This document shows positions 21,184 through 64,000 of a DNA stretch of 64,000 nucleotides, piece after piece. How positions within the stretch are numbered: position 1 is the first letter of the stretch; the number at the start of each line of letters is the position of its first letter. The translations under genes were made by a program, and so were the position numbers. This DNA is from Arbacia lixula. Its lineage: Eukaryota; Echinodermata; Echinoidea; Arbacioida; Arbaciidae. Under the pieces are notes generated by a model that saw only the letters and a list, made by a program, of their open reading frames with translations, searched no databases and had not been told where the DNA came from. The DNA is taken from the NCBI GenBank assembly GCA_963669155.1, contig OZ022577.1, forward strand, positions 5,330,165 to 5,394,164, read 5' to 3'.

Positions 21184-21628
21184 CCCTGAAATTAAGTTGG
21201 TTTTAAGGAAAGCAGAAACATGAAAAAGACATATTAGTGAAGGTTTGATGAAAATATGTCAAAGGATAAGAAAGATGTTACTTTAAAAGCTTACATTTTG
21301 TGAGGTGCGAGCTGCTCTCCAATATGTTGTGTGCTGTTTTCTTCCATAAATCGCTCTTTTTCTGTTTTTGATGGAGGAATATGTGTGTAAAAACGTATGT
21401 CTAAAGATATATCAAATGCAAAGGAAAAATAATGCATATCCTTTTGAGAAAATAAACATTTTCCAAAAAAAAATACACAATATATGTCAGAGCATCTTGT
21501 ACGTGATGTCACAAAATAAAAACGTCACAAACCTTATTCTTTGAAGGATTTTCATTAAACCTCCACTAATATGTTTCTTTCATGTTTAATTTATATTAAA
21601 CCCAACTTAATTTCAGGGTTGACTATCG
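21184..21628. mobile_element. MITE with ~75-bp inverted ends abutting the APAF1 start exon
   Basis: The left end ccctgaaattaagttgg (21184) is mirrored by the right end ccaacttaatttcaggg (to 21618). Inner blocks are also inverted: gaaacatgaaaaagacatat / atatgtttctttcatgttt and gaaggtttgatgaaaat / attttcattaaacctcc. Similarity continues weakly to about 21628, eleven bases before the ATG of the next gene. No protein is encoded. Confidence 0.85.
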
Positions 21629-21638
21629 CGTGCACAGC

Positions 21639-24600
21639 ATGGACTCACCGTTGCCTCAGCACAAGAGTCGCAGCGAATCGGATGCTCTGACGGACTGCTT
21701 GATGTTGGAGCTGGCCGAGCGACTTCACCCAAACGACTACCGCCCGCTTGGCTTGCGACTGGGTTTCACGGAGACAAGGCTCTCGCACATCGAACGGGAA
21801 CGAATGGGCATCATCACGGAGTGCCTCTATCTCATGCTAACGGAGTGGAAACGGCGGGAAGGCCGGAGCGCGACGTCGCAAATTCTCGTCCAATCAGTGA
21901 GGAGTTGCCATAATTCGGAGGCGGCTAATTGGCTGCAGGCAGGTGCGTTCGTGTTTCCGTGCATGTTTTTGGCCAAACTGCGTAATTCGGCTTAGTTCTA
22001 CATGAAAAAAGCTGCCTCTGAACCATGTTGTATGAAAAAAAAAATCCCACTTAAGTTGAAAGGTAACACAAGTGATGTTTTATTACGAATCATTCTCTTT
22101 TTGTCACATTAGAAATTATTTGAATTAGATTCCAGAAGGTAGCCATAATATTGTACGCGGTACAGGCCTACCACAAAAGTCCAATGGACTATTCTCTTTC
22201 ATTGACGTTGGAAAAGTGAAAAATGTGTTGTGTGTTATTCTTCAGTTAGATTTAAACGAAATAAAAAAAAAATCATCCATGTTTTGTCTTATTATCTTCG
22301 TCAATTTGCATTTCAGAACTGGGCCTGAATGATCCTGCTCAACGGACAACCTCAGGTATATTGTTTTTCTTTTATAGACATGGTTACCATGGTCGCAATA
22401 GAAGAAAAAATATATTGACCGGCTTATGCCGTCAGAGAAATGATAATGTTGGTCTCATAAATCCGTTATTTCTGGGCATAAGAATGCAGCATTTAAGCAT
22501 TTTTACTGTTCGCTTATACGAGCACATTGTGGGGAGGGGGGTTCAGACGAAGTGAAAAGATTAACGAAAACGTGATGTTAAATTAGTTACAACATAGATC
22601 TATAAGACAGTGATAGAACGACATGGTAATGACAATATGTCTTGTTTGCAGTGGAGGATAAGCTGCACGAGGGCAACGTACCAGCCCTACCTGATTGCCT
22701 GACAGACCGACCGGTAGAGCTGGCCGAGATACGGGGCAAGCTACGGCGGGCCGTTGCCTCAGACAAGCCGGGGAGATGGGTAGTCCTGCACGGCATGGGC
22801 GGGATGGGCAAGACAGTGCTGGCCAATCAAGCTGTTAGGGATGAGAAGCTGATGGACGGTTCGTTGGTTTTCACTCAACCTAGGCATACATATCCTTAAA
22901 GACCACCCAAAGGAAAAACATCAACTCGGGCAGTGTTTTTTTTTATAGACAGATGCAAGTGATCTTGAAGACAGGTTTGACGTATATGAATCATTGGATG
23001 TGAGTATGATGTTTGAAATACATATACGATCGTCAGTGTATCTTGGTAGTCTATATGTTGATCTTGAATGGAAAAGTTATCCCTCCGCGTTTCCAATACA
23101 CCCCCAACTATAGCATTGACTCAACATGATTCAACCCAAGATATATCCTTATATATCCTTATCTTCAGGATCATCTTGTACATTGCCAATCATTCCTTCG
23201 TATATCGGTTTATTTTGAGTTATTTAATTATATAATTTCTTATTTTCGCATTATAAGCGTTGTGCATTTTCCTTAATGTTCTGATGCGTAAATAGTTTGA
23301 TGTGTTGCGTTGACGTCATATGAACATGAACTTACTTGACATTCCCTTATTATCATTACTGTTATAAAAACTTCTTGTGGAATAGGCAACAACGACATTC
23401 AAATATTGAACATAATGATTGAGTTGTGTGTAGGCTTCATTCCACTAATTGATAACCATGATAGCGCCCTGATTATTTGTTAATGGTCCCGTAATGTTTT
23501 CTGAAGCAGAATGAAAATTCAAAAGTTATGAAATGGGCACATCCCTTAATCTCCAATCCACAATTCTGCCTCAGAGTGTTTCCCCGACGGGATCTATTGG
23601 TTGTCGATGGGGAACGTGAAGGAGGTGTCCAGCATCCCAGACCGTCTTGAGACGCTGTGCCGCATCTTTGATACCAACCTCTCCTCTGCGCCGTCGCCGC
23701 CGAAGACCGTGGAGCAGTGGAAGCACCTCCTCACCAAGCTGATTGGCCAGCGGTACCCAAGGTTTGGTTGCGATAGGTTTACCAGGATCACGGAACTAAC
23801 TCATTTCGAACAGTAAACATGGTAAAAAGGCTGCTCGATTTCGTGGAGGAAAATAGGAGAGTGGCACATGAGAGAGTTAAAAAGTTCGTTTCTTACTTAC
23901 AATTTTAGCCAGTTTGTACACGTTGCCAGGTGTCATGATTGCTGTCATTTTCCATGGGTAGTCGGCCAATTACCATGGTCATTTGGTATAATATTTAAAT
24001 AGGAACTGGTTGGTGGTTATTGGATCGTTAATATCACATAACAATTCAAGCCGTACTACTTCTCATTTTGATACCATGAGCTATTTTCGAAATGACGGTG
24101 TCAATTGATGAATTACAGTTGTGAGTTTTTCACATCAAACACATCTCGAGCTTAATCTTACTTAGCACTCATTCTGAGATTTAGTTACGAAGGTCTCTAA
24201 CCATCTCAATCGGAGATGTAATTTCACGATGTCACGCAGGATTGAAAGCATGTTAAACTAATTTCCTGGTAGGTCCCTGATCGTCTTGGATGATGTGTGG
24301 ATGCAGGAGGTAATAGCCGCATTCGATGTCAGGTGCACTGTCATGATCACGACGCGAGACGCCGGTGTGTTGAGTCGTGTTTCTGGTGAGTGAGAATAAT
24401 GCTTCTGTTCATTCCTAATACACCATCCGTTTTGTATTTTCTTTCTTCTGGGTTGATAGCAAGCTACCTTTATCTATATATCTTCGATTTCCTCGGTTCT
24501 CGAAAATATATCTTGAATAATATGATACATTGTGTACTTTGTAGGTTTTCATTGTGCGATGATATTTTTGAATAGTAAACCTTTTTGTGTAACCATAACT

Positions 24601-27600
24601 TTGTGGGGAATGAGGTTATATTCTTTCGTGCTTATTGGTCCATTTATGATTACTTTGATATCGATTTGTTGTCGAGGCGTAAGGAAGGGAAAATTCGTCA
24701 TTCAATTTTGTTAAAAGCACAGCAGATTTTATAGATAGGACGAAGAAGGAGGGGTAAGGGAAGGAAAGAAAAGGTTATGTCTGATTAAATTTTCTCAGCT
24801 TTTTCACCTGCACCTCAAACATGGTAAATAATGTGATGTCTTCGTCACTTCATTTTGGACTGGAAAAGGACATAAGGATGAGTTGAATCTCTCTTGCGGT
24901 TTGTCCGAGGAGCAATCCCGTCAGGCCCTAGCCGAGTGGACATCCATCGACATCAACGATCTACCATCTGAGGCGGCCCTCATTCACGGCTTCAGTCGGG
25001 GCTCCCCGCTCATCATTGCAATCGTAGGTGCTCTTCTGCGCGATTTTCCTGACCGCTGGCAGTTCTACGCGTCACAAATGAAGACGGCGACAGCGAAGCT
25101 GCAGACGATGTCGACCGACTCGAGCTACGAGTACCGGAGTGCTTACGAGGCCATTGACATGAGCGTGGAAAAGCTGAGTGCGAATCAGATGGACATCTAC
25201 TCGTGGTTTGCCGTCTTTGAGAAGGGTTGGAGGGTGTCCAGCAAGGTGATTTGCCTATTCTTCAGATTGAAATAGTGAATGTTGTGTAAACAAATAAATA
25301 AATGTGGGAAAGATACACGTATTCTCCACAGCCAGGTCCATACTCGTCATCGGCAACCACATGGTGATAATTTAACGTATAATTATGATCCATTGTACAG
25401 GGCCCCTTGGTAGAGCAGATTTTTAACTGAAAGGGCTACCCTGTTTAGATAAAACTTAATAAATAAATAAATCCATTCTTCGTTATTGATCATCCATTAA
25501 TAATTTGTTATCATTTCCTAACTGATCAATGATAGCATATGATTCTGTATTAAGTATTTATCATCCATTGTTATTCATTTCATTTTGATTATTTACCATA
25601 TTATTTTAATTTATTTCTGAATCACAAATATTACATAAAGTTCAACGTCAGCTCATTGCTAAACAAATATTTAACTAACCTGAATTCTTGAATAATCTTC
25701 ACATTTCTTTTCTATTAAACATTATTATAAGCATTGAGCAAATATTTACATAGACGGCATGCACTATTAATGAAAGCCTGTTGCTTTTAGATGCTGACCC
25801 TGCTGGCAGAATGTTCCAAGGAAGAGGTGGAGGACAGGATGAGAGACATCGCCCAACGGTCTCTTGTCTCCACCGATTGGTCGGAGAAGAAGGACTGCCG
25901 GATCTACTGGCTGCATGACCTGCTTCATGATCACCTAGTCGCAAGGAAAGCAGGGGAGAGGAAGGTATAGTTATAATGTATAAGTTCCTTCTCTATCTCT
26001 CTCTCTTCATGTTCCATGTTCTCCTTCCCGTTCTTTCTTCTTTTGGTTCTTCTTTTCCACTTTATTAGCATTCTCCTTCTTGCATTGATAACTCTTCTTT
26101 TTCTTTTTGTGCAGACATGTACCCATTTCTCCCTCTTTCTTTATTTCTTTTCCTCACTATATGTCCTCGCGTTTTGACACAAGGAAGAATTGCCAATACG
26201 CTAAGTCAATAAATGGCTTGAGCTTATTCACCCGTTCACATTTAACTTTGAATCACAGCCGGCATCACTATGCAATGAAGCCAAGTGTTTGATGTCTTTG
26301 TGTAAGCGCTTCAAGTCGTGCCGAAAAGACATTATCCAGACTGCCCTTCATTTCCCGCCCTCTTCAGCCGTCTTTCAACGAGGTCTGCGCGTTGCCGAGG
26401 AAACCAAGGATGTATTCTTCACCAAAGAATCGTAAGTCAAAGTTAATGGTCTGCTCATCCAATATGTCACTGATTTCAGTGTGAAATACCGTTGTCTATA
26501 GTTGTTCACAATCTCACAGTATCATTGGTAAGGATGACTATGGATGATTGATAGAGTGTGATACCCCTTAGTGAAGAGCTGTGATAGGCTACCCTTTCTG
26601 CTTTGTGTATTCTTTAAAGTAAGAGTATACGTTGAAAATGGAAGCAATAATGAATTGCATTTCACTTGCCAACAAATGGTGGGCAATATCGACGAAAAAA
26701 CACAAACACTGTATGCAAGAATGTTATTTGTACCAATAACGCCGAACCTTCAACTCCTCCAACATGTTCAAACAAAATTGGGAAATTCATAATTAGAGCA
26801 CAAGATTATCCAAACAGATTAACATATAACAAAACTGAAAAAGGCTATTTCAGCCTAATTTACGATACACAGAACCAACAAATTAGAATTAACTACCCCA
26901 ACAAAGTATTATCTCGCCGTCACCTCATAGTTTGATCTGAATTAAAGAAATTCACTTTTCCACTGACTCGATTGACTCAATCTTTACTTTTCTCATAAAG
27001 CTTTAAAAAGAAAAATTAATATTACAGCTACTCCACAAGCTAGTTAATGTCTTTTTCACATTTGTATTATAATGAATACAACACATAATAGTATAACTTA
27101 ATAATAGTATATGGTAGTATAACGGTATGGTAAAAGTGACTGAATCGAATTCTTGAACGCGTCATATATCTAAATGCAGCATCTCTCTTATTTAAAATCA
27201 TTTATTTCGATGTTTGCTATCTTATATTGTATTGATGTCCTTTCTTTTTGATGTAATGTAATTTGTGTATTTCTATGATTGTTTACGTTAACTCTGTGTG
27301 TGTGCCACATGTGCCTTTTTCACACGTAATACCCACAAGTCCCATTGAGCAGCAGTTTATCTGGCTTTCAAAGGGTTAAAGGCATATCCGCCTCAAAATA
27401 TTACTAACATGATTTTGCCACATTGTTCATGTCTTTTCCATATACTTTCAATTGAAACATTTTTATGGTATTATTGAATATTGTCTCATTACGTGATTAT
27501 ATATATCTCTCTTTGAATGTACAGACAATGTGATTTTGTAGGAAGAAATTAATGATTCAAATTCAATTGAAATTGAAAATCAGCACGGTTCCTTGAAAAT

Positions 27601-49521: not shown

Positions 49522-52500
49522 TCAGAATCTATGGAATGCAGATTTTCCTTTTTCCTTCACTTGGGGCTTGCCAAGGTGCTTGGGTCTATGGTCGGGAAGC
49601 AGATCTATATGCAAATAATAAAAACAACCAAGGAGAAAGAAAATGTCTAAATCTTCATGAAAGGAACAATATAATAACGTGTTAATTAACTATACACCTT
49701 ATTCTTATTACAGTCTACTCTATTCTGATACATAGCCCACTGATCCATTCTTTCTCTCACTCTTTGTCTGTCTCTCTATCTCCCCTTTTCAGTCACTCTT
49801 CCTATTTCTAACACATCTAACACAAGCACACGCTCTCTCCCTCTTTCTTACTTTCTTTTTTTTTCTCTCTCTCTTTCTCTTCATCCTTTTCTTACATATA
49901 CATATGTACTAGTAACGTATATTGCAGTATCAGTATTAAAGTATTCAAACCTGGAACAAAGGTATGTTATTTAAGAACTGAACTTGGTTTATATCCATTT
50001 GAAGCAAAGGCAGCATATTCACTGTCTATAAGACCACATGATTTCTATCACATATCAAAACTTTGTTTTCCTGAACAGTAGATAAATCAAGTATATAATA
50101 TGTAGACTGGGACATACTTTATATTATCATTATATCAGTATATCAAGATTCTAGTACTAAGTATACCATCTTAATCATATTGGGGGTGTCATATTATCAT
50201 CCTGTCAACTAAGTAGCGTGGTATCCAGGCTATTGAGTGTATTGAATCCAAATTCAATAAAAAGATCCTGCAGTAAAATCCACTCTCTACTTCATCTCCA
50301 GCTCCCCCAAAGAGGAAATTAGTCTAGTCAGTACTACACCCGAGTGTATATTTCTTGTGATTTGGATTTGATTTGATGTCCAACAGCCTGCAAGCCAGGC
50401 TATTGATTAAGAGAAGATTAATCTCACCTGCTGCTAAAGCTCTCTCAACACATTCTTCCAGGACAAGTTGTTGCTTGGCGCACACACCAGTCATCTTTCT
50501 TGGGAGAAGATTCCCCTCCTCGTCAATAAATTGACTCAAGATGAGGACATCCTGCACAAAGAAATCATGTACACTGAGGCATTTGCGCTGTTCATTTCAT
50601 GCTTGTTTCTTTTCTTCTTTTTTTTTATCTGCGAGTAATAAAACTGGAGTTAATCACAATGCTAACAATCAGGTTCAGCATCATCATCTAAATTCCTCTT
50701 CACCCCACCCCCTACCAGTGAAGGAAAAAAATGAGTATTTAAGATGATTTAGCCCCTTCTAGACTTTGTAGCTTGATCTTGTTGTATGCATAAACTTGGT
50801 GATCTCAAAGGGGTTCACCTTCTAAAAACACCCTTATCACAAACCCTGTAATCTTCCACTGAGAGGTTTACGGTACACCATGTGTAAAGTCCTGGAAAGA
50901 CTGAGAGGAGAAAAGTGGATAGAAATTGGAGGTGAATTGGAAAGGCGAGAAAGTGGAGATTTGAAAGTAGAGTATTCTTTCGAAATGAGTGTAGTCCTTA
51001 AAAGGACTGTAAACATGGTTCCTCAAACGTCCGTACGCACGCCATAAGTACCACAACTCAACTAGCGAACCCTTACTCCTGAAGACAGACAGTCAATATG
51101 CTCGAAACGACAAGTCCACCTCTCTACTCATCAGCTCTTCACTCTCTCTGATTTAAAGTCCTTTTAAGAACTACACTCCATTCAAAAGAATACTCTACTT
51201 TCAAATCTCCACTTTTTCGCCTTTCCAATTCAACTCCAATTTCTATCCACTTTTCTCCTCTCAGTCCTTCCAGGACTTTACACATGGTGTACTGTAAACT
51301 TCTTAGTGATTGATCATACCACCATGCAAACCTTCAAACAACACCTGTAATCTTGTTTTGCAAATTCACTGTAGGTAGATGAGAGACATATTATATTATG
51401 TACTTGTGTGAATTTTGTCCATATAGCTTGTAATACAGTATGATTAGTACAGTATTAATCAACAAATGAGAAATTTGATTTTCTGATGTCTGTTTTTTGG
51501 TTGAAATCAATTTGGGGTTCTGGTTTTCTTTTTCAAAATGGAGTAAAAATCTTGAGCCTCACCTTGTACGTAATCCTAAGATTTCTGCTGCATACTGGGC
51601 ATGCTCCATGAGGATCCTCAACGGCCAAGTAATTCTCACCCACCGTCTTGTATGAAGCATCCACCTAAAAAAATGATTTACATCGATGACATCTCCTTAT
51701 TCCCTACGCTACCACTCATAATGATTGATAAAATACATTATTAGGGCACCATTATGATTACTTTGTACATACCTGTACATGTATGCAGACAATAACAGCT
51801 AAATGATAACCATCAACTTATTGCTTATACTCTCACATAAAGATGATTTGGGCATTTTGGTACAATGTGGATGGCAAAAAAATGGGTTGCATAGCTCAGT
51901 ATTTTGACATTTTATACCATTTCGTATGCATGAAATTTGATAATACACTTTGCTTTGAGTGGAGGCCAAAATTGCATCATAATGTCGGCCAATGTGATTG
52001 GTGATCATATATCTGGGGAAATTTTATATACTGTGTATATGAATTATTAAGATTAATAAAAACAAAACAATAAAACAAAATTAACCAATCTTAATATTAT
52101 GTATCTAGAAGCATCGAATCTTGAACTCTTTTTGCGCCACTGAGGCATTATTGCATGTAGGACTTGCATGAACAATACACACAAAACCCATAGAGCGTCA
52201 CTTGTCGGGTGGAGAAATAGTTAAAAACAATCATGTTAGGTGTCTAGCAAAATGAGCACATCACTACAACATTACTTCAATAAGTAATATTGGATGTGTC
52301 CAACTCCAATTAAAAAAAACTGTTTGTTTTACTCATACACAAACTATGGGAGATTTGCCAACATATGACCTGAATAGACATGGACAATAGGTGAGAAATG
52401 GACACAAGGCCTTACAATTTCCCCCATCAGTCTAGAAAAGAATAATGAAGATTCTCACCTCTATTGTATCACCAACTGTTCTCTCGTGAACTGCAAGGAA

Positions 52501-54811: not shown

Positions 54812-54826
54812 ATGAAACATGGATGA
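54812..54826 (+). promoter_or_regulatory. 4-codon uORF overlapping the start of the unnamed gene
   Basis: ATG AAA CAT GGA TGA begins 7 nt before the main ATG (54819) in another frame and ends just inside the coding region. Its context is weak (T at -3, A at +4), while the main ATG has A at -3 and G at +4. Leaky scanning or short-range reinitiation could tune translation. Confidence 0.6.
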
Positions 54827-57800
54827 TGCTGATCTGGAAAAGCTGTCAATCAAACCAGGGGCATTGAACCCAAAATTCAACAGGAACACTGTGGAATATA
54901 ACGTAACAGTGGCAAGTGATGTTGGAAAATTGACACTCAGCTGTTTGACAAGTGATAGCAATGCAAGCTATCAAATAGTGGTAAGAAAATCAAGAATTGT
55001 TAAGTTTCGATAATCATGAATTGTGAAATGAATAATTGTAGGGCCCGTTTCAGCATTAGAATGACCGTTACATCTCATTTGGAGTTGACGCTTTGATGAC
55101 CGAGGGTTGCATGGCCTGGGCAGTTGTAAGAGAAATAAACAAGATGTGGGTGGAATGGTGGATGCGGTGTTCTAACTATATAAGGTCATTGACATTAGGG
55201 CAGGTTAGAAAATGTTTGAGTTATTAACGGTAGTCAAGTTAATAAAAGGTACAAAAGAAAGCCATTGCAAATTTAGTTCTAATGGTGGATTAAAGCTAGT
55301 ACAATACTAATGAATAAAATACTAGACAAATTTTACTAGTATGCGGATGATTGTAATTTACATGTTTTTGTAAGATAAGATCAACAGTAACACAATTTGC
55401 CAATAGGAAAATTATGATTTTAATCTTTCATACAAAATATGAATTATAACTAAATCTGAATAAGAGATAAGACTTTCAATACAAACTCCATTGTCAAGTC
55501 TTGCTACCTTGCCGTTCTCCAGGGGGGAGATGGAGGACGGACTGTTGATCTACCGGAGGGGAAGACCACGGACATCAAGATAGACGTTTCCGCTGAGGAT
55601 GGCACCAGCAAGCTCTATACCATCCATGCCAAGAGACTCTCAGCCAAGGATGCTTCTCTTACCAGCATCAAGATTCCAGACACTTCCCTCATCCCAGACT
55701 TCAGCCCTGATATCTTCAGTTACTCATGTGAGCATTAAAACAAACACATTACTTGATAAACGTAGCTTGTCATCAGACATCACTACAGAAATTATTTAAA
55801 ACACTTCAATACTCCCCCCTCCCCCCTGCTTTCCCTATATACTTTATACGCCATATATTATGTGAGTCTAATTTCATCAATTTCATGAGTGGTTAAATTT
55901 GCAATCGTGAAGCACATATACCATTAGTATATGTGCTTGTGTATGTCGTATTCATAGTTTCAAGTGTTGTTAAATTCGTGGATAGCATCCAACTCACAAA
56001 ATTTGGGGAAATAAAAACCCTGCAAAATATATGACGTATACAGTAGTCACTGGATATATTACAAGCCTGCACACTATTTCTCTGTGTCCTAAATCCACTG
56101 GGAAACATTCCACGCATTGCCATCAGCTGCCATTTCGGACAAACTCCTTCATTGTTGCAAGACTTTTACAGAGTAAAACATTTTGGAGGACGAGGGTGGA
56201 GATATTAACGCTTTTCAATGCTGTGCTTATTAGTTGTTATCAAACCTAGAACCTCTTTTATCTTCAGCCAAGTGTTATTTTCTCAGGACCACAACATCTT
56301 GAATATCCCAGACAACATTGAGACAACGTCTTTAATGAAAGTGCAGGTGTTCATCTGCAATGTATGGTGCCTGTTAATGGCGATTATAATGTATCTAAAA
56401 ATCTCTCTATGTTTGTGCTCACATTTGTGTTTTGTAATTGTGCTTCTATAGCCAGTTGTTTTTAACCCGTTTTACAGATGTTGTTTTTTCCACCTTTTCC
56501 ACCTGCTCTTTCTCCACCCTCTTTGCATTTTTTTTTTTTTGTCTCCCCATCATTTTGTTACCGGTAAGTTGCAGGATTTGCATATAATCTGAAATACGTT
56601 TTAAAAATAATCTCTCTTTTCCCCTGCAGGTATCCTTCCATTCTCTGCGAGTACTCTGAAAATTACTCCTACTGCCCCAGACAAGAAGAATGCGCTGAAA
56701 ATTAATGGTCAAGATCCAGGGTCAGAGGTCAATCTCAACGTGGGAGAAACTGTTGTAGAGATTGAAGTTACCTCTGCAGATGGCTCCAACAAACAGGTCA
56801 GATAGTATTGATTTGCTTGTCACCATGCATTTGTATCCTTGTTTACATATTTCTTTATTTCATTTCCAGGTAAAACAGTGAACCCACAACATGAGAATCA
56901 AAGCACTACCTGAGAACTTATATACAATAATCTACTATAACATCCTGTTAATGGAGACCTGTTCTCTTTATTAGTTGGTGCATGCATTGTAAATGATAAT
57001 TCACACATATGTATACAACTATGACATCTACAATCTCATTTGTTCTTTTCTTGACATATACTTCCATTAATGGGAATGTGCAGGAGTGGGAAGATCACAA
57101 AGATACTGGGACCATGATCATTTTACCATTTATACTAATTTGCGCATTCCCTAGTGTACACTCAATTTGTTGTTACTATAAAGAGCCTGCTTAAACTAGA
57201 CTGGTTCAATCTGCACTGGCCCCATAAAAATATTGGTATGATGAATCATCAGAGGAACTACAAAGACTTGAAAATGGCATGCATGTCACAATTTGTTTAT
57301 TCAGCATCTGTTCTTCTAAAAATGCAGATTTACACAGTACATGCAGCCAAGAAATGGTTTGGGCGTGCAATCCATTTTGCAGACAGCAGGGATGCCATGA
57401 AGTTTGAATGTCCCTTCACCATTGGTCCGTTCTACAAGCCCTGTAGCATCAGAGGTAACTATAAGAAAACAAAGAACAGCATTGATTTTAAAGTTTCCTG
57501 TGGAGGGGAGGGGATGAAAGATCATACTGGATACCCTTCCAAATAAAGGAATTCCTGAATATTTAAGGCCCCTGGCTTTATATTGGGCATGCAGACAGTT
57601 TCAATAACCAGAACAAACCTAATTCTCCCTATCGCATATAGCCGATATGAAGCGATATCACCTTGCAATACTGATACCTGATCGATTGCTCTCGGGACAT
57701 ATACTTCTGGTTAGAGTTTGATACTTATTCAATTCACGCAATAATGCACAGAATCTGTAATTTCAACCCTCGTAAACCTCGTAATATTAATACCGTTCAT

Positions 57801-60800
57801 GACCTAGATGGAAAGGTTGTTACACGGACAAAGGACTTGAAAAAAGTGCCACCAATTACTCACGGCATTGTTTTTGCCTACCTCAACATTGATTGTGGAT
57901 GGACTAATGAAAGAATAAAAAGACACAAGCAAGACGATGGCTATAGAATGTTCGTGGACCGGAACTTCATATCCAAAGAATTAAAGGTAAAAAAATGAAA
58001 CACACGTTCAGATTTGGAGAGGTATTTGCGATAGGGAGGATTATTTGATGAGCTGTTAATATAAAGACGTTGTTTTCAATCATATCAGGCCATCAATCTC
58101 TGTTTATGTTATTGTTACATTGTTTATTCCCCTTTTTATAATTTTATCCATGGATCTGTTATTCATCAAATTTACAGTATGCTCCATATGTAGGAGATTA
58201 TTACCATAATTTATATACATGTATAACCGGAAAAAACTTTTGTAACAATATATCACATATTCCCTGGTTGTTCTCTCTTTTTTCTTCCTGGTCACCACAC
58301 ACCCCTTTTTTCTATAAAATTCCGATACCCTATTCTTTTGATCTTCCCTCTGTAGGCTCTGACCCAAAGCATATCTTCAGCGAACCAATCATTGACGAGC
58401 TGACCAGAACATCCAAGGTGGATCCACTGGATGGGTCCCCACTCGAGAACAACTGGAAAGTTCCTGAAGCAGGCCTGGAGAAAGAGATGTCCGGTGCTGC
58501 AGTGAGCTGCATATATGCTTATGCAGGTAACCAAGATGTCGGATTTTAGTCTTAAGTCTTTGTGTACCGCATTCACACAATCGAGCATAAAGAAGCAGTT
58601 TCTCTGGCACACAAAGGGTTAAGGAAATGATGGGGAGGGGTTCTGACATGATTACGGGTCCTGTTCTGGTTTGATTTCAGGATCATATAAAGGAATCACA
58701 TAAATATGATGAAGTTGTTATTTACAGTCCTGAAATTAAACAAAACGGGCCCTTTGATCACAGCAAAACTGTTATGCCAAGGTCATCAGCTGCACCATCT
58801 TCACATTGCTATTAATTCCCTTCTTATTGGAATAAAAAGGAAATATTCGGAGAGGTAGATTTGGTAAACTTTCAAGGAAATGCTGGTGCACAAAATATCA
58901 GGGCTAATAGGTATGTAAGTGAAAAATGCTTTCATATTAATTTTTTAATTTTTTGCTCAAACTGGTTATCAATCTCCTGATTTGTTCTGTTGTCATACAA
59001 ATCAACTAGTCTAGTGATGTAATGCTTTCTCTATTTCCATAGGTTGTCAGGAGAAGATGAGGTACAGCGTGCTTGGTGCCCATGTGAAGGGATGTGAGAA
59101 GAGACCTAAAATTGATGTGGATCCTGAGGTGAGCTTTACTCTTTAACTTGTGAAAAATGAGCAGCAAATTTCTAAATTATTGTTGGTCAAAACACACAGT
59201 TTGTGTAGGATGAATGAAATACATCGTGCAACACCAGAATGTGTCTACTAAATTATGCAAAAAGGCACTTTTGTTGGAGGCTATATACTAAGGCAGTGCT
59301 CTGTATTTATCACATTTTAAGAACTGATGAATTAGTCTTTCTATTGTCTCGAATAGGTCAATTGAAATTGACGTATAATTCTAATTATCAGTTCATAAGA
59401 AGAGACACCAGAGGTAAGAAATAGAAAATATGGCAATTTCTTAATTTCTGAATAAAAGCATGTAAGGGTGAAAGGAAGGAAGTGCTGCAAGACCAGAAGT
59501 ACCAGTAGTTGTTTGTTGTGATGATTTTTGCAAGTCACCTCTATACAATAACCGACTTCTTCAAGCTCACTGATTACATGGTACCAATATATTTTCAGAA
59601 AAGGAACTATTATTGATTAGTAATGACTGGCCGTTTATTTTTAATTTGCCCTTGTAAACTACTGTAGAATACAGACACCTGCAAAGAGTGTAGCCGGAAG
59701 ATTTTCAAGGATGAGATGGACTGGCACAAGGCCCACCTGTGCATCTGTAAATTCACCAGCAGGGAGCTCAAACATTCTATCAAGGTAAGGAGCGGAGGGC
59801 GTCTCTAAGACCTTGGCCCATATTTGTGAAAGGGTAACTAACTTACTCGATGCCCTAAGTATGGAAGGCAGGTTGTACAACAATGATTTGGATTTAATGG
59901 AAATTAGATTAATGTCTATGTCTTAAATCAAAGGAGAACTCAGATAATTTTCTTTTAATGACTTTTCTGTTCATGTCACAGCACCTTGAGCATCTTTTTA
60001 TGTGGAATTTGCACATTTTAAATATATCTTATAATTATTAGGTTTAGTATTGTCAATATCATTGTTATAATCAGATTTTTTTTGTCACATTTGATTTAGT
60101 ATCATCTTTTTCACTCTTTGTGTTGTTTGTCAGAGTCATGATTGGGAGAAAAAGCTGCAGGTGTCTGAGGAAGGAGGCAGTGTCGACCAGCTGATGGCCA
60201 ATGCCAAGGAGCTCATCAAGAAGTATCGCACCATTCTGCCCAAGAAAGGTATGCAACTTATCATGTGATTCCCCTCAAAAGCACATGGCCTTGCAGGGGA
60301 AGCAAACGCACATGATAAGCTGAATTGAAGTAACTAAATGAAAAATCAGAGAACCAGATTGTTGAAAGTCTTGATATTCCATATAGGGCGCATTTAAGCC
60401 ACACGCTCTTGGTTCCTGCAGTTCCATGGCTAATTTTGACCTCTTTACTGGACCAGGGTTCACAAAGCCCAATAATCTAACTGAGGGGAATGGGTTAAAA
60501 TCTTCATTACTAACCCTGTAATCTTGCTCTGTAAATGCAAGGTATACAAATGATGCTCTTTTTAGCATGGTATGTAAGAACAATGAACCAACATAACCAT
60601 ACATCATTGCAGAACATCAGAGCTGCTCATCAAGGTGAATGATTAGAATTCAGTGCTTGTGATCAGGATTTTACTGTTTTTTGCATCTTGTGATTTGTCT
60701 GATTTTTCTCAAATATTTGCAAATCTTCTTCTCATATTTTTCTGCTTTTGTTCAATTCAACTTATAAGCTGGGTTCCATTCTCCTTCCATTAATGTCTCA

Positions 60801-63695
60801 AGATACAGTGTATTCAGTTTGTTTGTCTACATAGTTGACCAATCTATCCTTCATATAGTTGAAACTGTTTACAAAAATATTTCACCTTAAGAGAAAGGGA
60901 ATAGAAGAAATGATACCTTCAGGTATGGACAAAATCTTAAATGGAATTTGTTTGATTAATGAAAGTAATTTATTTGAACAATTCCCCCATGAGAAAATAG
61001 AAACAGATGCGAAGTCACATGTCATGACTGCCTGCTGTTGAATTGCTCTAGTTGAATCCTGTCTCACCCCTTGCAGGTCAATCGTCTCGGTTTGAGGAGG
61101 GAAGTTCCCCGCTAGACCTGCTGCACTCCGCTGCGGTGAGCCTCGCTTGCGCCATCAAGCAAAAGTCCAAACAGGCTGACCTTCACTTCACTCTGGGCCT
61201 GGTCCTGGAGGAGACCTACTATGCCCAGGATATGTACGGACTCAAGAAAGAGGTACATTATAGTGTGATAGACGTGTCGCTTTCACTTCATTCATTTATG
61301 ATGCAACCCCACAAAACCAGGATAAAGAGTATAAATTGTGAATGTGTGTGCAAGTACTGCAAGAGTTATCATCAATTCTCTTTGGTTCTTCGATCCTCTG
61401 TAAAGAATCAATTTTTTAATGTAATATTCATGTCAAGTTAACTTTTATGGTTCACATTCATACTGGAGTTAAACAACACATGTTTCATGGTAACGTGTCA
61501 CATGTGATAGATCTTTAACTTGACATAATTTCATTTTATTTTTTCCACACATTTCCATTATGTAGAAAGAAACTTTCTGATCACTAAATATCATAGTACT
61601 TTCAATGTCTATATAGAAATAGATCGTCATGTATATTTCCTCCATGTTTTGATAAAAAAAGCACTGATTATAGTGAAAACAAAATATCAATGCTGTATTA
61701 GATATTTGAATAGAATGTGAAAAAAAATATATATTTGTTCCTGTGGTAGTATGGCATTTAGTCAAATAAAATCCACAATGGCTGTCAGATGACTGAATTG
61801 CTGTGGCTTACAATGACAAATTTGAAGTAAAACTTACTTTTCTTAGGAAATACAACTGGACAATGCTCACACTACACAAATAAATATAGCAATGATATTA
61901 AAACGGAAGAAGAGTTGGAAGCAAAGAAGAAGAAGGAGGGGAGAGATAGCAGCACCTAGAATGTATGAATATAGAGAAAGGTATGGAATAGTATGTGGAT
62001 AGAGTATGGCAAGATAGGTCATCAAAAAAGTTGTGATGCAAACAGTCCACAAGATGATCAGTAAGTCATGGAATCATATGCAATTCTTGTGACTCAGGAT
62101 GAGGACTTAGACGACAGCATGGCCACCTTGTCACTGGGCCTTAGCACCAAGTCCAAGGACAGCAGCAAGGAGGATGACATCCAGGCTATCTGTCAACAGA
62201 GAGGGGCGGGAGCCAACGCCCCTCTCTCCCGTCAGCTGCAAGCCATCGACGAAGAGTACAAACATCTGCTCAACAGCGGCCAGTCACAAAAGTCGGACTA
62301 TGTGCAAGAGCTATACCTCTTCAAGTCCAAACAGGCCACCCAGGTAGGGTCCGAGAGCAAGGAGATGTCTTCATTCTTAAATTCTTAAGCCTCTCTTGAC
62401 CAGGCCGTTAAAAAAACTCAAACAAAGGGTCTTACTAAATGTATGGTTATAGCTATTGCGAGACTTAACCCAAACCTAAAATACTGATTGACTGAGAAAC
62501 CATTTAAGCAGATTGGAAGAGGTCTACCATGTTTCTTCAGTGTCTCTTGGTGTCATCTGCTGCTTATGGCAACCATTTTGTTGCTCTTGGTTACACCTGG
62601 CAGCTAATAGTAGGACCAAAAATTACTATTTTGGTTTTCAACTTGGAAACACTTATTCTTATTAAATGTATCATTATGAATTGAAATTACATTTAAAATA
62701 CACTAATAACTGTCTCAAACTGTCTAAAGAAAATTGAGATTGCAAATTTATTGAAGTAATAAACTTGTTGTTGCTGGTGGATGCATGTAGGGAGGCAAGA
62801 CAGCCCAGGCAGCCGCTGATGAGTCCAACCCTCTTGGCCAGGCCTGTCTCAAGTTCATGGATGCCCTGTCGCTGGAACAGAACAACGCCCTCTATAATAC
62901 TCATGTGGGCAGGCTGATGCTGCTGCAGGGCAAAGCAGAGGAGGCCCTCGTGAGACTTGAGCATGCTGTTGGCATCAAGCCTCTGCTGCCTGCTGGCAGG
63001 TAGGGGACAAGAGGAGGACGGGAGGGGAAATATATGAATACATTATTTAGCTTGGCTTTGAGATTACACCACTGCTTCCCACCGGCAAGTAAAGGAAAGA
63101 AGAAGGGAGAGAGAGGATATTTCAATATGATATTTATCATACCATTTTGTTTTCTGGTACATATTTTCTTACAATCCTCTCACATGTAAGTTTGTATAAT
63201 AGCTATATGGAATAAAAAAAAACATTTGACCACTAGCTTTAAAAGCAGGAAGACAGATGGCAAGGAGGAGGAGCTGGAGGGGGAGAAGAGGTTATATATG
63301 AGAAGATGGAGGAGGGCTGGGGAGAAGGGAATAATAGCCTTTGATGGACAAATAGAAAAGGAATGAAAGACAGAGTTGAAGCAGGAGAGGAAGAAAATGG
63401 ATTGATGGACGAATAGAAAAGGAATGAAAGAGAGAGTTAAAGCAGAAAAGAAAGAAAATAGAAGTGTTGCAGTTAGTGACAAGGAAAGAGGGAGGATTGG
63501 TATAATGAATGGATATCAGTGAGTAGTAAGACCTTGCTGACTTTTGATTCTTACCAGATTCTACCTGGGACTAGCCTTGGTCCAGCAGAAGGGTGGACCA
63601 GGAGCCAGGGCCAAAGAAGCCAGGGCCTATCTCAATGATGGAGTGCAATATTTACTGGAACTCACAACAAAGGAGGCTGAAACTGCAGAAAGCAG
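54819..63695 (+). CDS. Unnamed protein: cadherin-like beta-sandwich x2, U-box/RING-like, TRAF zinc fingers, TPR; 3' end beyond window
   Basis: Exons seen: 54819-54980, 55523-55727, 56630-56796, 57328-57454, 58356-58526, 59043-59128, 59668-59784, 60134-60248, 61077-61252, 62098-62343, 62791-62999, 63558-63695. They total 1919 nt (639 codons so far), all in phase; the gene continues. Residues ~4-104 and ~105-185 look like Pfam-type cadherin-like beta-sandwich repeats (SADGSNKQIYTVHAAK, AEDGTSKLYTIHAKR). Residues ~203-250 resemble a U-box: ECPFTIGPFYKPCSI, then HIFSEPIIDELTRTSKVDPL. Two TRAF-type fingers follow: C272-x6-C279-x11-H291-x3-C295 and C311-x2-C314-x11-H326-x4-C331. From ~390 the chain is helical with TPR-like repeats (YNTHVGRLMLLQGKAEEAL, then FYLGLALVQQKGG). 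No signal peptide is seen. A cytosolic ubiquitin ligase or scaffold is inferred from the domains only. I do not recognise a named orthologue. Confidence 0.88.
57622..58041. mobile_element. 420-bp TA-flanked inverted-repeat DNA transposon fragment with an ORF
   Basis: Ends are ATTCTCCCTATCGCATA (left) and, inverted, ATCCTCCCTATCGCAAATA (right). Both are flanked by TA (57620-57621 and 58042-58043), as with Tc1/mariner-type insertion. Inside, 57744-57998 is an open plus-strand frame of 84 codons, including HKQDDGYRMFVDRNFISKEL. That piece faintly resembles the 'DGYRLF...' block that precedes SWIM fingers in transposon-associated metazoan proteins. It sits between exons 4 and 5 of the unnamed gene. 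Confidence 0.65.
63339..63465. repeat. ~63-bp imperfect tandem duplication in a purine-rich intron
   Basis: tgatggacaaatagaaaagg and gaatgaaagacagagttgaa recur 63 bp later as tgatggacgaatagaaaagg and gaatgaaagagagagttaaa. The surrounding 63240-63500 is almost pure purine. Confidence 0.8.
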
Positions 63696-64000
63696 GTCAG
63701 TAGACATTTTTGCAGGCTTGATTTTTTTTCAAGCTTGTCACAATTTTTTGCATGTTTTTTTTTATAAAGGCTACTGCAATATTATGTGTACAAACTTTAT
63801 GAGCATGATTAATGAAAGCTGGTTGGTTTTGAACCATCGTCGAGCACAAACTTTGTGGAAATTTCGACTGACTGTGACAGTGTTTTTTCAAGACAATTTG
63901 GGGATTAATGAGTATATAGTATCCTAGATATGCTGTAGGATGCAACATTTTACTTCACAGTTGGAGTATAGTCTTTCAGCAATAGTGTAAGATTTGACTG
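63696..64000. other. Intron of the unnamed gene running off the window
   Basis: After the donor at 63696 (gtcagt) no further exon was recognised before the window end. The frame that stays open to about 63927 is intronic read-through. Confidence 0.5.

Follow-up and report, generated by a model that had tools for sequence, protein, structure and literature searches.

The analysed window, a 64,000-nucleotide stretch of the Arbacia lixula genome, contains the first part of a 20-exon, echinoderm-type gene encoding a protein of 1139 amino acids (aa). The gene is real, and its product carries two cadherin-like sandwiches and TPRs, both firm assignments from profile matches, together with a middle region that looks TRAF6-like and appears to consist of a RING-derived core and, after it, two fingers of TRAF type. 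The best explanation, which we hold with moderate confidence, is a TRAF6-like scaffold whose core would be zinc-free or bind one zinc and be U-box-like in function. The protein may be a ubiquitin ligase or a signalling adaptor and is treated here as a candidate.

The window corresponds to C2:5330165-5394164 in an assembly of 607 Mb and 590 contigs. Within it, exons 1 to 12 (54819-63695, plus strand) join in frame into 639 stop-free codons with consistent phases, all 11 introns between them are GT-AG, and a GT directly follows exon 12, which bears out the initial observation. The exons are as follows.

54819-54980, plus strand: exon 1, with the ATG and the first cadherin-like sandwich, aa 1-54 (frame, donor GT, PF12733)
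55523-55727, plus strand: exon 2, where sandwich 1 ends and sandwich 2 begins, aa 55-122 (frame, PF12733)
56630-56796, plus strand: exon 3, second cadherin-like sandwich, aa 123-178 (frame, PF12733)
57328-57454, plus strand: exon 4, last part of sandwich 2, then the first half of the RING/U-box-like core (C206-P-F-T209), aa 179-220
58356-58526, plus strand: exon 5, other half of the core (H226-x-F228, D243-P-L-D-G-S-P-L250), then the linker and the first finger 1 Cys, aa 221-277
59043-59128, plus strand: exon 6, remainder of TRAF-type finger 1 (C272-x6-C-x11-H-x3-C295), aa 278-306
59668-59784, plus strand: exon 7, TRAF-type finger 2 (C311-x2-C-x11-H-x4-C331), aa 307-345
60134-60248, plus strand: exon 8, without a Pfam match, aa 346-383
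61077-61252, plus strand: exon 9, without a Pfam match over the cut-off, aa 384-442
62098-62343, plus strand: exon 10, without a Pfam match over the cut-off, aa 443-524
62791-62999, plus strand: exon 11, TPR region, aa 525-593
63558-63695, plus strand: exon 12, end of the TPR match, aa 594-639

The gene does not end at position 63695, which is the exon 12 donor. The 3' exons, which the initial annotation had left to be recovered, lie beyond the window in the DNA that continues past it (L002), the first 164 bases of which are identical to window positions 63837-64000. Eight more exons, 13 to 20, were picked there by eye between L002 positions 475 and 7498 (64311-71334 on the window scale); all eight have AG acceptors, the first seven have GT donors, the phases match, and the last ends in a TAG stop at L002:7498, which completes the 1139-aa protein. 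The model is drawn from genomic DNA alone, and exons 8 to 10 and most of exons 13 to 20 are supported by frame and splice sites. The coding potential is not a chance effect, because none of 2000 base shuffles of the joined coding sequence was stop-free (mean, 49.5 in-frame stops) and because the G+C content of the 12 window exons (0.511) exceeds that of their 11 introns (0.352). As to the genetic code of the host, COX1 on contig C590 (15,740 bp) has 12 in-frame TGA codons and is regular with the echinoderm/flatworm table, with AAA read as Asn at N122 and N203, the latter presumably a position normally conserved as Asn, and AGA read as Ser at three places; this codon use fits the echinoderm code.

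A second copy or paralogue was not found in the 607-Mb genome by an exon-by-exon search in which the best candidates were scored. The 639-aa query gave 12 places at E ≤ 1, all inside this gene, and a genome search with PF12733 gave one place at E ≤ 0.001, exon 3 of the same gene. A 107-codon open frame in intron 4 (57675-57998, plus strand) was considered as a missed exon and rejected, being one copy of a repeat dispersed in the genome: of 1958 genome candidates, 150 places were scored, most of the places listed carry stops, and the frame has no Pfam match. Repeats also occur downstream. A tandem repeat with a period of 87 bp (L002:1253-1687), the copies of which resemble the first by 97%, 97% and 60%, begins 7 bases after the end of exon 14. 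Intron 14 itself contains degenerate direct repeats about 160 to 172 bp apart with AGGTCA-like motifs (L002:1939-3018), flanked by exact 11-bp inverted ends at L002 positions 1939 and 3008, and this segment is perhaps a mobile element.

Both ends of the first 639 aa are well supported. PF12733 matches there with an E value of 7.1e-28 and 97.3 bits (cut-off, 24.2) in two stretches, the better at aa 103-183, and it reaches 102.7 bits on the N-terminal 198 aa; we draw the borders of the two sandwiches at about aa 1-95 and 96-188. TPR_17 scores 29.5 bits in the full-length protein (cut-off, 24.4), also in two stretches, and TPR_11 scores 27.9 bits on aa 346-639 (cut-off, 26.8) and 24.1 to 25 bits with longer queries; the TPR matches fall at aa 546-611 and in a second, unplaced stretch. 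The cadherin-like domains and TPRs named in the initial annotation are therefore both upheld. Farther on, aa 831-990 form a basic linker of 160 aa (pI 11.2) rich in Ala, Gly, Lys and Pro, TPR_Slam weakly touches aa 997-1036 in the full-length query (14.4 bits; cut-off, 35.2), and the last 154 aa queried alone have no Pfam match. A PDB search with aa 640-1139 gave no match at E ≤ 1, and MATH/TRAF-C is absent among the six Pfam families matched by the full 1139 aa at E ≤ 10. Neither a hydrophobic leader nor a membrane span is present, the top 19-residue hydropathy over the whole protein being 1.27, so the protein is probably cytosolic, as had been proposed.

The two fingers have exactly the TRAF spacing first ascribed to them: C272-x6-C279-x11-H291-x3-C295 and C311-x2-C314-x11-H326-x4-C331. 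When aa 263-345 were shuffled 20,000 times, a pattern of this kind turned up at least twice in 33 shuffles; when the whole protein was shuffled 5000 times, it did so in 2. Pfam zinc-finger models stay below threshold (zf_C2HC_14, 14.5 bits against 25, E 0.032; zf-TRAF, 9.7 bits against 27, E 1.8), and no RING model matches at E ≤ 10, a range in which the HMMER filters remove most matches above about 0.1. Among 177,635 PDB sequences, aa 135-384 gave only two matches at E ≤ 10, both TRAF6: 5vo0 (E 0.12), collinear over the RING, finger 1 and finger 2 at aa 202-335, and 5vnz (E 0.58), with the RING and finger 1 aligned. TRAF6 also appeared at E 0.55 among 20 weak matches of the 639-aa query, and aa 186-358 had no match in the PDB.

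Profile comparison points in the same direction. With hhalign, aa 189-345 were compared with a TRAF6 profile built from two sequences. The alignment spans 91 columns (aa 232-333, 26% identity, P 0.00026, hhalign probability 42.5) and has a score of 29.86, which none of 1000 shuffles reached (best, 28.48); the reversed sequence scores 11.84, under the shuffle mean of 12.6. When 13 tiled stretches of the protein were compared with this profile, the two that contain the fingers scored 24.53 and 27.55, and the next, the unrelated stretch aa 937-1093, scored 19.68. In Smith-Waterman alignments with the whole region shuffled, the real score was reached in 1 of 2000 cases for human TRAF6 and in none of 2000 for 5vo0, the zebrafish-type TRAF6. 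When the real fingers were kept and aa 189-262 shuffled, it was equalled 8 times in 2000 with human TRAF6 and 4 times in 2000 with 5vo0, whereas aa 189-262, the RING half, alone were at chance (412 and 397 of 2000 shuffles), which indicates that the fingers carry most of the TRAF6 signal and that the RING half adds to it in context. The shuffles make a composition fluke less likely as the source of the TRAF6 match, although the null search with aa 186-358 stands against TRAF6. Because the matching PDB sequences are TRAF6 only, the core is more aptly called a degenerate TRAF6-type RING.

That degeneration concerns the zinc ligands. The motif residues read in the initial annotation, a CPxT start and an end with H.F, P and PL, are present as C206-P-F-T209, H226-x-F228 and P244....P249-L250. 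Taking eight positions of TRAF6 to be its zinc ligands, the pairs C-C/C-H/C-C/C-D align to C206-T209, P224 (or C217)-H226, S229-P231 or I232, and D243-D246. Of the eight ligands of a TRAF-family RING, at most C206, H226, D243, D246 and perhaps C217 are kept, and T209, S229 and P231/I232 stand in place of cysteines. The earlier view that RING zinc ligands are missing thus agrees with the alignment, in which most of the eight positions are lost. Judged from these residues, zinc site 1 appears lost and site 2 partly lost; the latter could at most bind via H226, D243, D246 and perhaps C217.

These losses are an argument for the chief rival of a TRAF6-like E2-binding scaffold, namely, that the core is a dead pseudo-RING and the protein a pure adaptor, in which the sandwiches and TPRs would bridge two partners, the fingers would provide a spacer or a surface for dimerization, and no E2 would be bound. 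The chance-level score of the RING half alone also favors this explanation. However, the core retains F208, P244 and L250, and its D-P-x-x-x-S-P-L stretch is similar to that in the UBE4A U-box (1wgm), whose local alignment score was reached in 70 of 2000 shuffles, the best result among the four single U-boxes compared; this hints at a maintained fold. We regard the pure adaptor as a possibility to be taken seriously, if only tentatively.

The same residues raise the question of whether the protein is a genuine U-box ligase that descends from a U-box gene and gained fingers and TPRs. The CPxT start, the lack of a full zinc site, the D-P-x4-P-L-type end and the local likeness to UBE4A all fit such an origin; the initial annotation had called the core a U-box or U-box-like. 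However, PF04564 has no match at E ≤ 10 in the protein queries (again with HMMER filters removing most matches above about 0.1), of 1000 shuffles 196 score at least as high as the core against a PDB U-box profile of six sequences, and end-free alignments to four single U-boxes are at chance (609 to 1366 of 2000 shuffles). The PF04564 model matches this genome at 22 places. Two arrays on contig C12 account for 17 of them; of the other 5, two on contig C4 (model positions 2-40 and 36-73) appear to be a single U-box core split by an intron. The model therefore works in this genome, including on split cores, and the core described here is not among its matches. With no Pfam match and with profile and single-sequence scores at or near chance, a U-box proper is not supported; descent from a U-box gene is, in our estimate, improbable. 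The two C12 arrays (C12:13322411-13324244 and 13409315-13411032) consist of half U-box matches, mostly spaced at 106 bp and with in-frame stops, and lie in opposite orientation about 88 kb apart.

That fingers and RING-like core are both chance likenesses within a scaffold made only of cadherin-like domains and TPRs would accord with zinc-finger matches that all stay under the Pfam cut-off and with the empty PDB search for aa 186-358, but the shuffle results against TRAF6 (0 of 1000), the rarity of finger pairs (33 of 20,000) and the collinearity with TRAF6 make it very improbable.

For a TRAF6-like scaffold, the following division of labor may be proposed. The N-terminal cadherin-like sandwiches would bind a partner or substrate. 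The core, RING-derived and apparently with two TRAF-type fingers after it, an arrangement like that of TRAF6 in its N-terminal half, would most likely work as a zinc-free or one-zinc, U-box-like E2-binding module; this is suggested by the retention of hydrophobic and Pro positions, since the residue that follows CP and the second-loop Pro are taken to be E2 contacts in this superfamily. The core may have converged from a TRAF6-type RING on a zinc-free, U-box-like state. The TPR region, the basic linker and the C-terminal part could be docking or assembly surfaces where TRAFs have TRAF-C/MATH. It is rather doubtful, and offered as speculation, that the gene stands for a new animal family of zinc-shed TRAF6-type RING ligases, sandwich-targeted and TPR-assembled, perhaps an echinoderm innate-immune or death-signalling scaffold.

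Should the core fold as a zinc-free RING/U-box beside TRAF-type fingers that are intact, it would represent a naturally occurring step between RING and U-box, and such an intermediate would make the origin of zinc-free ligases testable. A beta-sandwich known mostly from bacteria would, moreover, be the recognition part of an animal signalling protein in the cytosol. With a dead core, the domain order is still unusual and the importance modest.

A Pfam scan of 10 open frames revealed domains of neighboring genes in the window.

21600-21992, plus strand: Death-domain exon, upstream (E 6.2e-10)
24832-25272, plus strand: NB-ARC-like exon, upstream (22.5 bits; cut-off, 23.5)
50327-50596, minus strand: Ribosomal_S18 exon, divergent neighbor (PF01084, E 2e-12)

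The first two (21600-25272, plus strand) probably belong to an Apaf-1-like gene, as judged from these domains, and its nearness to the scaffold gene may be due to chance. The third would belong to a mitochondrial S18 gene. It had been suggested that a mitoribosomal gene shares a promoter region with the gene described here; the divergent Ribosomal_S18 exon is there, but the sharing of a promoter finds no support, the exon lying 4.2 kb from the ATG.

Among the papers listed by literature searches, judged by titles and the openings of abstracts, none gives an account of an architecture of sandwiches, TRAF-like core and TPRs. This leaves standing the initial suggestion of an undescribed E3 ligase or adaptor as far as the domain order is concerned; the U-box on which it was partly based is not supported, and the protein is an E3 candidate only. 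Searches of prokaryote contigs gave pattern matches in 67 stretches for aa 1-639 and 20 for aa 640-1139, and those of virus contigs in 2 and 1, respectively, with no relative confirmed in either; being limited to prokaryotes and viruses, these collections give no information on animals. The sole NCBIfam match, MamA, was dismissed as chance (14 bits against a cut-off of 200), and PADLOC gave no match with aa 1-358.

The cadherin-like beta-sandwich is known mostly from bacteria, and one animal protein described as having it is not known to contain fingers or TPRs. The paper that ascribes the domain to this animal protein calls its molecular function unclear (PMC5739604). Bacterial cadherin-like proteins share the domain with the protein studied here: tblastn against plasmids gave a best E value of 6e-16 and identities of 27.8 to 40.7% (in the 20 rows listed, out of 45 records). 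The plasmid matches, among those listed, lie over the sandwiches (one reaches aa 243), and several carry an autotransporter protein annotation. A single place covering 80% of the query was absent from all 45 records (E ≤ 1).

Animal U-box ligases are zinc-free RING-superfamily cores, and to our knowledge none of the seven main ones surveyed by Marin in 2010 has cadherin-like sandwiches or TRAF fingers. These seven genes are UBE4A, UBE4B, UIP5, PRP19, CHIP, CYC4 and WDSUB1, and CHIP has three N-terminal TPRs and then a C-terminal U-box (PMC3087547). Neither sea urchin nor Strongylocentrotus is mentioned in the main text of the survey (PMC3087547), so absence from it means little. With CHIP/STUB1 the present protein shares the combination, within a single cytosolic protein, of TPRs and, provided that our interpretation is correct, a core of the RING/U-box superfamily, whereas here the U-box profile is unmatched, the TPRs come after the core, and sandwiches and fingers are added. 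With TRAF6 (5vo0, 3hcs) it shares the order of RING-like core, linker, finger 1 (x11-H-x3-C) and finger 2 (C-x2-C-x11-H-x4-C). In contrast to TRAF6, the RING ligands are mostly lost, two fingers are found, TRAF-C/MATH is unmatched, and cadherin-like sandwiches stand in front of this shared order and TPRs behind it.
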